Below are positions 35,762-43,572 of a stretch of 64,000 bases of DNA, in pieces (within the stretch, counting starts at the first letter, position 1; each line of letters opens with the position of its first letter). Below the pieces are notes generated by a model that was not told the DNA's origin, ran no database searches, and saw only the letters and a list, made by a program, of their open reading frames with translations. The translations under genes were made by a program, and so were the position numbers. Source of the DNA: Tetrahymena thermophila SB210 (lineage: Eukaryota > Ciliophora > Oligohymenophorea > Hymenostomatida > Tetrahymenidae); assembly GCF_000189635.1 (NCBI RefSeq), contig NW_002476508.1, forward strand, positions 62,001-126,000, given 5' to 3'.

Positions 35762-37139
35762 TCAGTAAACCATTTGCATGACTTCAACCTTCTCCCTACC
35801 GTCTTAGCCAATATTTAAACCAGACATGTAAGCTATGAGATTTTGAAGAGCTTTTTATTAGTAGTTTGGATTAGTTTCATTGAAATCAACATTTGTCAAA
35901 GTTAAAAACAAATCCAAAGCAGTTAATAACTCTTCTAATTCTTATTATCTGCTTACTTTTTCCTTATCAAGAGTGAATTTAATTGCATCTTTTTTCATAT
36001 CATAATCACTCATTATTAATTCTAAGAATTATTTATCTTTTTCGTTTGCATTTAAGTGATTAGCTGCATACAAAAAGTTAGCTAAATATTTTGCTACTGT
36101 GTCAACAAACTTAATCTATTTGAAAAATATAAAAATTTTTTTAAAAATATATTGAAAACTATTTTCCATCATATATTTGTAATAGCTTTGATAAATTATT
36201 ATCAAACATTTAAGTTGATTATTGATAAAGACAAGAAAGCAATCAATTTTGGAAAATATTTAAAATATAAAACAAAATTTTACATTTTCTGAAAAGAGAC
36301 GGGCAACATATTCCTTATTCTCATATTCAAACATGCAATTTCTAAATGCTTTCAAAATAGCTACACGCTTAGCTCTGCTTTAGTGGAAAATATACTTAAG
36401 ACATTTTTCAGGAAGTTCGTTTTCAGGACGAATCAAGTATTTACGAGCTTCAATATCACTTGAAATGTTAGTCAAAATATTTGAGAAGAAACGAGTTAAA
36501 TCTTAAATGGTATCTTTTAAGTAAAGTTCATAGAGAATACGGAAGTTATATCCTTCTTTATTTTCATCACCTAATTATAAAAGACCAGCTTTACCTTCTT
36601 CGTGTTAAGTCATATTAGAAAGAAGGAGGAAGCACAAATCGCAGACAAGCTTTTAAGGTTGAGTATAGCTAAGATGTTCATCTCCATTAAGAGCCTTTTT
36701 ACCTGTGTTATCCTTTAAAACTTCAGTGATTGTATTCTTAATCAATTCAACTATTCTATCAGTACTCTTCAAGTCAATCAAATGCTTTTAGAAAACACCA
36801 TCTTGAGTAAAATTAATCAAATTACTCAAACAAATAGTAGTGAAGCGCTAAATTTATTAAAATTAATATGAATAAGAATTTGAAGAGAATAAAATCTTTT
36901 AATAAATTAACTAATTAATATAATTTTACCTAATCACCTATGTTCTTCACAAGAGATGAAATAACATCTGATTCTTAAAACAAAATACGGTTGTCGGGAT
37001 TGCTAGAGCACTAAATAAGAATGGCAAGTGCTTGCTTTTTAACTTCAGGTTTAGGATCCTTGATTAATTATGCCAAATCGTCAGCTATTTCTTAAGTTAA
37101 TTCGAATTAGTTTTGAGTGGTATCTTCTGTTTCAGCCAT
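35762..37139 (-). CDS. HGH1: HGH1 homologue (armadillo-like chaperone of eEF2)
   Basis: Three exons (37139-36930, 36847-36284, 36115-35762) join in phase 0 to 375 residues, close to the size of known HGH1. Family-like segments are VKKQALAILIQCSSNPDNR (N-terminal armadillo repeat), FTTICLSNLINFTQDG, DLCFLLLSNMTQHEEG, LTRFFSNILTNISSDIEAR and, most diagnostic, RVAILKAFRNCMFEYENKEY, which matches the conserved 'LRNCCFE' region. HGH1 is a cytoplasmic co-chaperone that helps fold translation elongation factor 2 together with TRiC. The C-terminal third is more diverged. Codon use is somewhat better balanced than in neighbouring genes, fitting a well-expressed housekeeping gene. It is divergent with the dehydrogenase gene that starts 826 bp away. 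Confidence 0.85.
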
Positions 37140-37965
37140 TTTTGTATATTTAATATTATTTGCTAACTAACTAACTACTTCTATTATTGTTGCTTTTTTA
37201 GTATTTAATTTAATGATTTTTATAAATTTGAGATTATAATTTTGATATCTTAGTTGGGATTGGTTATTTTTATATTAATTTTTGATATCACTTTCTTTCT
37301 TATTCTACATAAATCTTAAATAAGTTTATATGCTCTCTATAATTCATTTCTTATAATTACTATTTCGATTATAAGCTTAAGTTTAGCATGAAATGTATCT
37401 TTTTAAACCAAAAATGGATAAGTAATCATAAAAATATCAGTTTTTAAATTAAAATTATTTTCAATAGAGGACTTATTTTATTTAGATTTTGATATTTACT
37501 TCAAGCATAAGTTGAAGAAAAAGCAAAAATTTTAATTTTAGCAGAAAAAATAATTAAGTAAAATAGACTTAAAAGGCACCTAATAATGGATATTTTGTTT
37601 TATAAATATTATTTTTAACGATAAATTGAAAGAAATTAATATTGATAAATTCTGTTTTTATTCATAAATTTTATAATAAATTCTTCCTGTTTTTTCGGGA
37701 GCTTTGAAAAAAAAAATAATAATAATTCTTTTTGCTTTAGTATATATTGGCTTTGATCAGTTTTTAATGTTCTTTGTTTCTATCAATTAGCTTTGTTTTT
37801 CGATTTTTCTAAGCTTTTATAGATGTTTTCTAAATATCTTTAAGAATTTTCGAAAGAGAATCAATAACTTTATCCAAATTTAGAAATTAGAAATTACTTC
37901 TAAATTTTTTAAATTTTGGCAGCATTCACAAATATTTTATAACTGTGTTTTGAATATAAAAGCAA
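37140..37965. promoter_or_regulatory. Shared upstream region of the divergent HGH1 and SDR genes
   Basis: These 826 bp separate two start codons pointing away from each other, so both promoters must lie here or overlap. The DNA is AT-rich with no motif I can name. Assignment rests on gene layout only. Confidence 0.4.
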
Positions 37966-38961
37966 ATGGAAGTATTTTTCTAAGGATTGGGATTATGCTC
38001 TTTTGTATTAGCAGGCTCAATAGCAAAAAAAAAATTTTATCCATATTTAGTTAAAAAAAATATCTCCTTGCTTAAAAGCAAATACAATCCAAACGGAAAT
38101 AGCTATGCCTTGATAACAGGATCTTCTGATGGAATAGGGAAGGAGTTTGCGAAATTGCTAGCATAAGAAAATATGAATATAATTTTACATGGTAGAAATA
38201 TTTAAAAGCTAAATACCGTTAAAGAAGAAATCATTAAAGATCCTAAAACTAGCAAAGATATCAAAGTAGAAATATTCGAATAAAATTTAAATGAATTAGG
38301 GTTAAATATCGAATAATAAGCACAAACAGTATTAAATTAATACAAAATCTAATTATTGATAAACAATGCAGGCATAACATCTGTAGAATCATTAAAAAAT
38401 TCTAGTGTTGATGATATGTAGCAATTAATTAACACAAACATAACATCTCCGATTGTCTTTTCAAAATATGTAATCTAAAATCATTTCAAAAACGAATAAG
38501 AAGAATATGGAATCATTAATATAAGCAGCTTAACTGCTGATTTTCCTATAGGATTTATAAGCATTTATTCTGCTTCTAAATCTTTCCTAAATGCTTTTTC
38601 ACAATCTTTATAATAAGAAACAAGTTCAAATATTTAAATAACTTCAATCAAGCCTTATTATATCTCTACTAAAATGACCAGATTTTAAAAATTAAGCTTT
38701 GACACAATATCTACTTAAGAATTTGTTAATGGAGCAATAAATTCATTTTTACACAAGCAAAATTGTTCATGCGGAAATTGGAAGCATGAATTAATATATT
38801 TATACTACAGCTTAATACCATCATGGATATTGTAAAAAAAGTTAACTTAAAAAATGGAAATAGTTGCAAATTAGCTCTATAAAATAAAATAAATTGGATT
38901 AAAAAGACAAAAATTAAATAGTTAAAAATAAAGTAATTCATTGGAGGATAAAACTAAATGA
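37966..38961 (+). CDS. Short-chain dehydrogenase/reductase, 17-beta-HSD12/KAR-like
   Basis: A single intronless frame of 331 residues in the ciliate code (37966 ATG to 38961 TGA). An N-terminal hydrophobic stretch (residues ~7-20, GLGLCSFVLAGSIA) could be a membrane anchor. The Rossmann fold shows the NAD(P)-binding TGSSDGIG (51-58), the structural NNAG (133-136), the catalytic Ser of INISS (near 188) and YSASK (Tyr201, Lys205). An ER-like N-terminal anchor with TGxxDGIG is characteristic of the group that reduces 3-ketoacyl-CoA or 3-ketosteroids (KAR1, HSD17B12). Substrate and location are inferred from that resemblance. The C-terminal ~70 residues are Lys/Gln-rich. It is divergent from HGH1 and convergent with the cNBD gene 252 bp downstream. 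Confidence 0.9.
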
Positions 38962-39213
38962 AATTCATAAAATTTATTAATTAATTTAATTTAAATTGTT
39001 ATAATAAAAAAATATTTATTATTTTTATGTACATTAATAAAATAAATAACTATTTTAAATTTACAAAAACATTAATTATGATTTTATTTAGTCTTTATTT
39101 GTTTATTTTTAACTTTTTAAAATTTATTTTTTCTTGAGAAAAATTTTATTCAACTTTAATATTTTAAATTTATAAAATTTTATTTTTGGTTTTTTATTTA
39201 AAAAAATAAAAAT

Positions 39214-41936
39214 TCAGATCTTTTTATTTTCATTTTTATCATCAGCTAATTGTTTTAGCATTTAAAACTTTTGAATATATCTGTGATTTGTCAATTATAA
39301 ATTGGCTTATTTAGGAAGGCTCTTAAAGCTAGACTCGCTTATACTTCTTGTTTTTTTATTGATAATTATCTTAGGAGGAGGTGGTGGACATATTACTGGC
39401 AATTTAATATAACTCACATCTTTTTAAAGATTTTTTTCTTAGCTTGTATCGGTTTAAAGCTAAGCAACACTAGAATAAGAGTATCCTGTAGATTCGTATC
39501 TAGACTGATTATTATAGTTGATATTTTATTTTAATTGATCGATTTTCTTAAAAGAAAGATTGTAATAACTTATTTATTAGTCAGATTATAATCTTTTTAG
39601 ATTTTTTAAAGATTAGGATTTTTTTAAATCTGTAAAATTGCATTAATCTTTTAATGGTTTTATTTTATTTTAATTTTTATCGTTTTCACTTTCATTTTAT
39701 CCCATTTCTTCGAAAAGGCTAGAAAAATTTCTTGATTTTTGTTTTGGATGCTATTTATTTATATTATCAAAAGGCTCATATTGCTCATCTGGAATTTCTG
39801 TTAAAAATTGAGCTATTTCTACAACTGATTAGTCTTGGTTTTCTTCAGTTGGAAGAGTTTTTATTTTAGGGTTTATCATGCTTTCTTCTTATTTTTGTCC
39901 TTCAAGTGATGTTTATAGAGCTCTAAAGTCTTTATACAATGGATTTTATTAATGAGAATAGTTTTAGTTTTAAAGAATTAGTTGTAATTTATTTGGGATA
40001 GACTTATTTTAGATAGAAGTCAAACTATTTTCTTAATTATCAGCATTATTTTCGCAAAATGACTTTTTGTACTTAATTTTATAAGTAGATTTTAACCTAA
40101 ATAAATAAGGATCATAAGGCATTTTATAAGTTCCTTCAGGATACATGTGCTCAGATAAGTTAGGAAATCTAAAATTCTCTTTTGGGATTTGTTTGAATAT
40201 TCTTTAGTTTTCTTCACTAGTTTTAGCAATTATCTCAGTTTATCTAGTGATATCATTTGCAATTATTAAATCTTATTATCTTTTCAAATATTTTTCTGAG
40301 AAATGTTTATTTAACTTCAAGTGTGATTGTAATTCAGCTGCATAAGTTTATTGCTCACTAAAAAATTTATCTACCACTTCTTATGTATGCTAATCATTTA
40401 TATATATTAATTTATTATTGCTAGCTTGTTCAATCAGTTCTTCTCTAGCATGCCTGCTCTATAATTTAGCTTAGGCAGTAAGTTTTAAATTTTGTAAATA
40501 TCCCTCAACGTGCACTTCTTCTAATAAAAGCTTTTATTTTTAAATATTAAATTAATAATCAATCATATATAAAATTAATTAATTTTATTTTATACTTTGT
40601 AATCAATTTTAAGAAGAGTTACTGTTTAAGATAAAACAACAGCAGAATTAGTTCTTTTGCATCCATTGAAAAATATATCTTCTTCACCAAACAGTTGACC
40701 TTTTGAATAGATTGTCAATTTAATGACATGCTATATTTTTAAAGTATTTCCTACTGAATTGCTAGGTACTTATTACTTTTAGGCTAATTGATCAAATTCT
40801 TCAAGCTCTTACCCTTCACTTTCTTTCTTTTCTTTTAAGTAACGAAAGTTTTTTTTTTTGGAAATCTTTTCGTCAATTAAAATCTGTGAAGGACTCTTTT
40901 TTTAAATGATTTCTACTTCGCCATCGAGTACCAAATACAAAAAGGGATCTAATTGATTTTAATTATAAATTGTTTGTTTTCTTGAATAAGACAATTATTC
41001 ACTGTTTCATAAAATTCTTTGAATTGTTAACAAATGGATTCCTTTGAAAAAAGGTTTTATTTCTACTATTTTTTAGTCTATTTTTTCTTAAATTTAATTT
41101 TTGGCTTCTTTCACAGCTTCTAAAGATAAGCAGAGCACAGTGGCTTTTGATTCTTAAAGCTAGCTTCCTCCTATTGCAAATGCTTTTTTCTTTTAAGTGT
41201 AGCCAAAATCAGTTCCTTTAATTTGTAATGTTTCAATTTTTTTATAGAGTAAAACTCCATTTGCATCAAAGACGCGGATTTTTCCTTTTTCTTCATCAAT
41301 TTTTTTGAATGCATCCAATTAAATTTCTTCATTTTTCTTTCTTTAGAAAAGCATTTCTTATTCTGAAATAACATTTTCCTTGTCATAGTATCTTTTCTTT
41401 TTTTTGCTTTATTCTTTTTAGAGTTCTTCTTATTTTATCAATTCAGCTTCATTTTAAACTTCTTGAAAAGACTTAGGATAAAATATATCTATATACCCAT
41501 TTAATAAAATATAAAATTGCTATTATTCTTCATTAATCTTATAAATAACTTCTCCTTTGCTGACATATTTAATCTTCATAGAAGGTATTAGCATCATTAT
41601 AAAATCTTCATAAAACTAATTTGGAATCTCCATTCCTTAAATTATTTAAGTATAGCCTAAAAAATTAATCACTTTCTACAAATCCTCTTGACTTTTTTAT
41701 TCAGATTTTAGAATTATATCTATGAAATCCTTCATTTAAAAAAACTTCTTAATCAATAAAAATAAAATTTAGTTTTAAATTACTTAAAAAATATGAGGAA
41801 GATCTTTGGGTGCAGGATAGAATTTTTCTTTCCTTCCCTTTATCTTTGAGAGTTTGTACTCTTAATATTTTAAATAATCTTCATTGTTGACGTTCTCATC
41901 TCTGATTTAGTTAATTTAGTTACTGTCTTTGTTCAT
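39214..41936 (-). CDS. Protein with two cyclic-nucleotide-binding domains, carrying one in-frame TGA
   Basis: Two exons (41936-40596 and 40530-39214, 65-nt intron) give 885 codons open except for one TGA, codon 310 (41007-41009). A first cNBD lies near residues 100-190 (YVSKGEVIYKINEEQQQFYI, LLNGYIDIF). A second begins at about PFFKGIHLL and continues, after the TGA, through SRKQTIYNQ, FLYLVLDGEVEII and GQLFGEEDIF. The C-terminal half is Gln/Lys/Ser-rich with a Pro run near its end. In the second cNBD the spacing across the TGA fits the usual domain length, so the codon sits inside helix sequence rather than at a natural end. Such proteins bind cAMP or cGMP; kinase regulatory subunits also carry two cNBDs, but no inhibitor or dimerisation motif is seen. 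The TGA could be sequence error, a null allele or recoding. Confidence 0.75.
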
Positions 41937-43572
41937 TTTTATAATAAATTGTTTTGTTGTTTAATTAATTAAGTAATCAATCAATAAATATATAGATTGA
42001 ATAATTGGTTTATAAAAAATTTTAATAGCTGTCCTTCCAAAATCAGTAAGTTAATTATTTTGTAAATATTTCCTTATTGTAAGTTAAAAACAATTAATTT
42101 CAAGTTTCGTAATAACCAATCTGTAAAGATATCAAAATAATTTAAATCAGTAGTTAAAATTATTTTAATAAACTCTTATTAGTAAGTATTTCCAAAATAA
42201 TTCATAAAAGTATAAATGAAAAGAAGAAAAAAAAAATTTGAGTATTCAGTAATTTAGTTTGTTTAAAAGAAATTTATCAAAGCAAAGTTCCAAAAAATAC
42301 CACAAATTTTAGATATTAATAAAGGAGAGAATTTTAAAATATCCACAAAAAATAATACTTACCAGCTTATCAAAAAAAAAAAAAAATCTGCCAGAAATAA
42401 TCTTTATCCACTTAATTATATTTTTTAAAATTACATTTCAAAATTTCAAAATAAAATATTTAATTCAAAGTTAAAAATATTTTTACTAAAATTCATTTGA
42501 ATAATTTAAAAAAAATATTTTGAATGAAATTAATAAAATATTTTAAAAATGTAATAAATGAAAGAATAAAAATATAAAATTATATTATTTATTTTTTATT
42601 TATTGTAAATTAAAAAAAATAGATTGAGGATAATGTAAAATAAATAAATGACTTGTGGATATTTTATTGAAATTAAAGAGAAAATAAAACAATTTTTTTA
42701 AGTAAGAATTTATTAATTTTTTCTTCTGAATTTTTATTTTGAAAAAACGATATGAATGAACAAATTGATTGCTATTTGATATATTCATATTTAACCATTT
42801 TAACAATTATTCTAAAAATATTGAATTTTATTTACGAATTAATAAGTAAATAAATTTGGTTAAGGAAATTAATTAATTTACTATAAAAACATCAAAATTT
42901 ATATTAAAAGTTGCTTTTTGCAAAATATTTATTTAGAATTAAACATAATTTATTTTGTATTATGCAATTAATGAAAAAGGTTTATAATTAAATAAATAAA
43001 ATGTTAAATATAAATTATTTATTAATTTTTTTTAAAAAATTATTTTTAAAAATTGTTTATTAATTTAAAAAATGCTTAGATCTAAATAAAATATCCCATC
43101 CCATATTCATTTTTTATCAATTAGATTTTTTACAAATTTAAAAAATGAAAGCAAACAAATAATCATCTTTCACACCTTTGTGAAGGGTTTATTAATTTTT
43201 GATAAAAAAAATACATATTTGTTTAATAATATTTGTATCAATGGATAATAGCTTCTGAGAAAATAATTTTAAATCAAATGAATGAAAAAAATAAAAAATG
43301 TCAAATAATAAAATAATGGCAAATGAATGAAATATAATAATTCTTAGCAAAATAGAATGAAAAAAGATGAGAGAACTACTAAGTTTAATAAAGACTAAAT
43401 TAATTAAGGCGAATTAATTTTTAGATAGGAAGGAAAGGATAATAAAAAGTAAAAGGGAAAAATAAAGGACTAATTCAAAGATACTGTTGGAAGGTCGAAA
43501 GCATAATTAAAAGAAAAAAGGATAAAAATTAATCTAAAATCAAATATAAAAAACAAAGACATAAGTAAAGAA
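41937..43572. promoter_or_regulatory. Upstream region shared by the divergent cNBD gene and RPS16
   Basis: About 1.6 kb between two start codons that point away from each other. The last ~250 bp before RPS16 are strongly purine-rich on the plus strand (aaagg, gaaagg runs), perhaps leader sequence of the ribosomal protein mRNA. No defined promoter motif was identified. A frame at 42600-42806 is AT-rich and not credible as a gene. Confidence 0.4.

Follow-up and report, generated by a model that had tools for sequence, protein, structure and literature searches.

Gene layout at the locus

The window, the 64,000-nucleotide stretch of Tetrahymena thermophila SB210 DNA analysed as a whole, carries on its minus strand a gene encoding a protein with two cyclic-nucleotide-binding domains (cNBDs). 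The features of this gene, together with the segments discussed below, are as follows.

41936-41784, minus strand: exon 1, from the ATG at 41936; 51 codons, modelled by eye from the frame
41783-41748, minus strand: candidate intron 1; 36 nt, GT...AG, near the 5' end of the gene
41747-40596, minus strand: exon 2; contains the first cNBD, the internal TGA and most of the second cNBD
41090-40596, minus strand: alignment span of the second cNBD, interrupted by the TGA; PF00027 at 35.9 bits if read through
41031-41002, minus strand: 30-nt GT...AG segment over the TGA, the intron considered in an earlier sequence-only reading; judged not to be an intron
41031-40981, minus strand: 51-nt GT...AG segment over the TGA, sharing its donor with the 30-nt segment; judged not to be an intron
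41009-41007, minus strand: internal TGA; codon 298, or 310 with the 36-nt candidate intron counted as exon
40595-40531, minus strand: intron 2; 65 nt, GTATAA...AAAG
40530-39214, minus strand: exon 3; C-terminal region, with the terminal TGA ending at 39214
39213-38962, minus strand: 3' interval, reaching the convergent dehydrogenase ORF and without a SECIS-like hairpin

Candidate intron 1 may be exon, because it is in frame and stop-free. Its length places it in the class of introns whose authenticity PMC5014332 doubts. The C-terminal region encoded by exon 3 gave no Pfam match above the cut-off and no paralog in a genome search. The convergent ORF at 37954-38961 on the plus strand matches short-chain dehydrogenase (PF00106, E 1.5e-35), and because it ends at 38961 the likely 3' interval of the cNBD gene is only 252 nt. 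A neighbouring ORF on the minus strand (35762-36946) matches DUF383 (PF04063, E 2.9e-12).

From the ATG at 41936 the frame runs for 873 or 885 codon positions before the terminal stop, with a single internal TGA. Downstream of that TGA, 575 codons are open, spanning the 65-nt intron, to the TGA ending at 39214, so that the frame is open on both sides of the stop. At the trinucleotide frequencies of the window, 873 codons should contain about 15.6 TGA, and under a simple model the probability of finding one or none is 2.9e-6. Over the identical stretches, each of the other five frames contains between 3 and 14 TGA upstream and between 7 and 30 downstream. The interrupted frame is no chance ORF. 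Codon-position composition is similar in the 297 codons before the TGA and the 575 codons after it, and no second lesion was seen in the gene frame. No restart Met is present in the 145 residues read after the TGA (to 40571).

Searches of the genome (101 Mb, 445 contigs) by DNA and by protein pieces demonstrated that the gene is single copy in the assembly, with neither a second allele nor a duplicate there. No whole-gene paralog with a TGA at the matching codon was found, and the flanks of the TGA gave 0 matches to prokaryote and viral contigs, as expected. The genetic code in use here reads UAA and UAG as Gln and UGA as the sole stop, because both the telomerase gene and the telomerase RNA of the assembly point to T. 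thermophila. TERT of PDB 6d6v chain A, which we take to be T. thermophila telomerase, agrees with a stretch of the telomerase gene at 226/226 aligned residues; the one gap in that alignment, of 21 codons, is an intron. The telomerase RNA in the assembly presumably resembles that of T. thermophila.

The interrupted domain and the short segments over the TGA

The piece after the TGA matches the Pfam cNMP_binding family (PF00027) with an E value of 2.4e-9 (37.5 bits against a cut-off of 27.5), and the piece before it, the first cNBD, falls below the cut-off (E 0.0056, 17.1 bits). A PDB search with the downstream piece returned no match. When the piece was read with X at the TGA codon, phmmer gave weak PDB matches to cGMP-dependent protein kinase 1 (E 0.064 for the whole sequence, 4.5 and 6.5 for the domains), which aligns ungapped across that codon. 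By alignment, the TGA falls in helix 1 of the second cNBD. Of the relatives found in the genome, L002 and L003 are the nearest, with 25-26% identity in a search that read Gln codons as stops; L002 shows 20% identity in an alignment with table 6. Because the cNBD matches are clustered, many about 5 kb apart, on contigs C22, C33, C91, C112, C145, C174 and C428, a tandem expansion of cNBD genes is suggested.

We measured the helix stretch in a MAFFT alignment, beginning at the aromatic pair that precedes the helix and ending where the barrel starts. It is 30 residues long here with the TGA counted as one. Among 26 other T. thermophila cNBDs it is 30 residues in 15, 31 in six, 28 in four and 34 in one; this set comprises L002, L003 and 24 of 30 fetched loci, and the six left out before alignment (L005, L007, L014, L015, L016 and L028) have an upstream helix that is broken in frame, as judged by eye. 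As aligned, the helix spacing calls for one residue at the TGA. Six of the 26 cNBDs with differing helix length (L017, L021, L025, L026, L031 and L034) were left out before a 20-row profile was made. In these 20 rows the column of the TGA holds F (7), K (4), S (3), Q (2), N (2), H (1) and M (1), and neither Cys nor Trp occurs there in any of the 20. The column is variable and gives no indication of the residue formerly encoded. The cNBD profile score of the helix residues was reached by 2866/20000 nucleotide shuffles, 2806/20000 residue shuffles and 6340/42632 window positions; by this measure the helix residues taken alone show no significant likeness to a cNBD.

What the sequence-only reading had observed at this site is real. 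Its lone in-frame TGA at codon 310 of 885 is confirmed at 41009-41007, 310 being the count when the candidate intron is read straight through, and 885 was matched as well. The claims that the TGA interrupts a single domain, lies inside a helix and takes the place of one residue were right, the helix position by alignment and the one-residue spacing by the helix lengths given above. TGA had also been called the genuine terminator of the other genes in this DNA, and the cNBD gene itself ends in one.

Could the TGA be spliced out in frame within a 30- or 51-nt intron? Both segments are GT...AG and both are multiples of three, and 51 nt is close to the usual intron length in Tetrahymena, for which PMC5014332 gives a mode of 56 bp; the same source describes 50-70-bp 3n introns as enriched for in-frame stops. 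L003 has a true-looking intron near the corresponding place (1451-1506; 56 nt, GTAAAT...ATAG), and the chance-level profile score of the helix residues is also what such an intron would allow. In L003, however, helix 1 of the second cNBD is exonic, and the intron follows closely behind it. This 56-nt intron contains a TGA and so mimics an interrupted frame. Excision at the TGA would leave a helix stretch of 20 residues (30 nt) or 13 (51 nt), compared with 28-34 in the 26 other cNBDs. As a weak argument, GTA starts 15 of 16 readable introns, whereas the segments over the TGA start GTTAAC; a GTT donor occurs in one of the 16. That sole exception is a likely intron of the kinase locus L046, with donor GTTAAT. 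PMC5014332 further suspects introns of 24-45 bp as annotation artefacts and reports 45-62-bp 3n introns as under-represented. Because the helix residues are not significantly cNBD-like, it is the spacing that speaks against an intron, and on that ground, not on residue similarity, we reject both segments. Splicing out of the TGA is, in our view, quite improbable.

Selenocysteine, readthrough and the use of UGA elsewhere in the genome

The same TGA could in principle encode selenocysteine. A tRNA-Sec gene is present in the genome (68.6 bits, above the cut-off), and six selenoproteins are reported in T. thermophila (PMC2612030). The expected accompanying features are missing, however, as SECIS-like hairpins number zero in the 713 nt downstream and zero from the TGA to 38501, and Cys is found in the column in 0/20 cNBDs. 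A cNBD is not a redox site. The scan used for the hairpins recovers 6/6 of the published T. thermophila elements (PMC2612030, Table 2) and fires in 10/178 background windows. Rfam likewise placed no SECIS within 38000-42500, where its model is insensitive in T. thermophila; because RF00031 yields one weak match genome-wide, this is no test here. With a negative scan and a sensitivity control of 6/6, selenocysteine was rejected, and we regard it as barely credible.

Partial readthrough by a near-cognate tRNA would yield short one-cNBD and long two-cNBD forms from a single mRNA. It would fit the intact frame downstream of the UGA, and the authors of PMC6879139 attribute to readthrough pressure the excess of backup stops that they see in ciliates whose sole stop codon is UGA. 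Against it, no stimulatory element was found, Rfam yielding only three sub-threshold matches to unrelated families. A leaky stop context has C after the stop codon; here the following base is A. Moreover, the UGA lies inside a folded helix and not between domains, and the search for a whole-gene paralog with TGA at the same codon was negative. Readthrough has no positive support, and we hold it to be highly doubtful.

A cNBD search (151 matches reported) gave no in-domain TGA among the matches listed, and an ABC family search gave TGA in 0/19 of those listed. In a kinase family search, 15/139 of the matches listed contain TGA in the matched span, and in all 15 the TGA lies in an intron or past a frame change, as judged by eye. 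These control searches score only the best candidates and are not a genome-wide count. In this assembly it is unusual for a conserved domain to contain TGA. Because in-domain TGA is absent among the listed control matches, in-frame TGA is no general habit here; and because the controls oppose a general sense UGA, the causes that remain are those confined to a single gene, namely a nonsense change, an error or gene-specific readthrough.

The list of possible causes offered by the sequence-only reading was sound and its members can now be ranked, with its interpretation overall partly supported. Two of them fared poorly: the 30-nt intron is disfavoured by helix spacing and by the doubt that PMC5014332 casts on 24-45-bp introns, and recoding lacks positive support. 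A SECIS element, proposed for inspection downstream of 39214, was not found by the scan described above.

Nonsense change or sequence error

We conclude that the TGA is probably an ordinary recent nonsense change at a single site in a dispensable T. thermophila gene, which is single copy, encodes two cNBDs and is intact apart from this codon. Such a change requires nothing unusual. Translation would yield a truncated product of 297 (or 309) residues that breaks off within helix 1 of the second cNBD; it would keep the first cNBD and lose the second together with the entire C-terminal part. The change would sit in the sequenced macronuclear DNA, and may have been inherited through the germline or fixed somatically by random assortment; the macronucleus is reported to have about 45 assorting units (PMC2998532). 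A further TGA could arise through 147 of the 7857 single changes possible in the gene, and none is seen. The lesion is taken to be young because no second TGA or other lesion has appeared despite these opportunities; assuming equal rates, its age would be below about 6% neutral divergence. The divergence of T. thermophila strains from SB210 reaches about 1.2%, and a comparison of 22 strains shows variation at 2.25% of positions (PMC10868616); null alleles are therefore expected. Two considerations count against the nonsense reading. Germline base substitution is described as very rare in T. thermophila (7.61e-12 per site per division; PMC5585995), and an intact 575-codon frame past the stop is equally expected from an error or from a readthrough gene.

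The main rival, which we consider unlikely, is that the gene is intact and the TGA stems from an error at one base in sequencing or assembly. All but one base fits a working gene. An earlier complete SB210 assembly underwent Illumina polishing before use (PMC10868616), and the genome is described as AT-rich and hard to map, with an incomplete reference (PMC5585995). On the other side, the recent SB210 descendant D18 is reported to show, after polishing, only 48 differences from the reference (PMC10868616), a figure to be read with the caution that the window may be from another assembly. Substitution errors of this kind also appear rare here, because the three family searches list no in-domain TGA among their matches. 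We infer that the base is real, the product truncated and the gene dispensable.

A lone stop most likely represents no new way of reading the genetic code. If the cause is ordinary, the concern is one of annotation, as gene-finding software may span a stop like this one with a false 30-nt intron, a type of artefact that PMC5014332 suspects. If the base is real, the strain would be a natural null that does without the long two-cNBD form. Only if ribosomes pass the UGA would the gene bear on whether a one-stop code tolerates or uses readthrough. We know of no UGA recoding in Tetrahymena other than selenocysteine, and no report of one appeared among the literature records listed; true readthrough here would, as far as we know, be the first.

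Several known systems resemble this gene in part. Condylostoma, with context-dependent UGA (PMC4967479), likewise has internal and terminal UGA within one gene, but all 64 codons are sense there, and the matches listed here contain no in-domain TGA. The T. thermophila selenoprotein genes (two GPx, three TrxR and one SPS2; PMC2612030) share an in-frame UGA in a code where UGA is the sole stop, whereas the cNBD gene has no SECIS and no Cys in the column and encodes no redox enzyme. The ultra-short 3n "introns" of Tetrahymena annotation described in PMC5014332 are similar in that a 30-nt in-frame GT...AG segment could bridge the stop, and differ in that its removal here breaks the helix spacing. 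Nonsense (null) alleles and young pseudogenes have, to our knowledge, no differing feature, and the cNBD gene shares with them the lack of a second lesion, its single copy and one stop in a conserved frame that is elsewhere intact.
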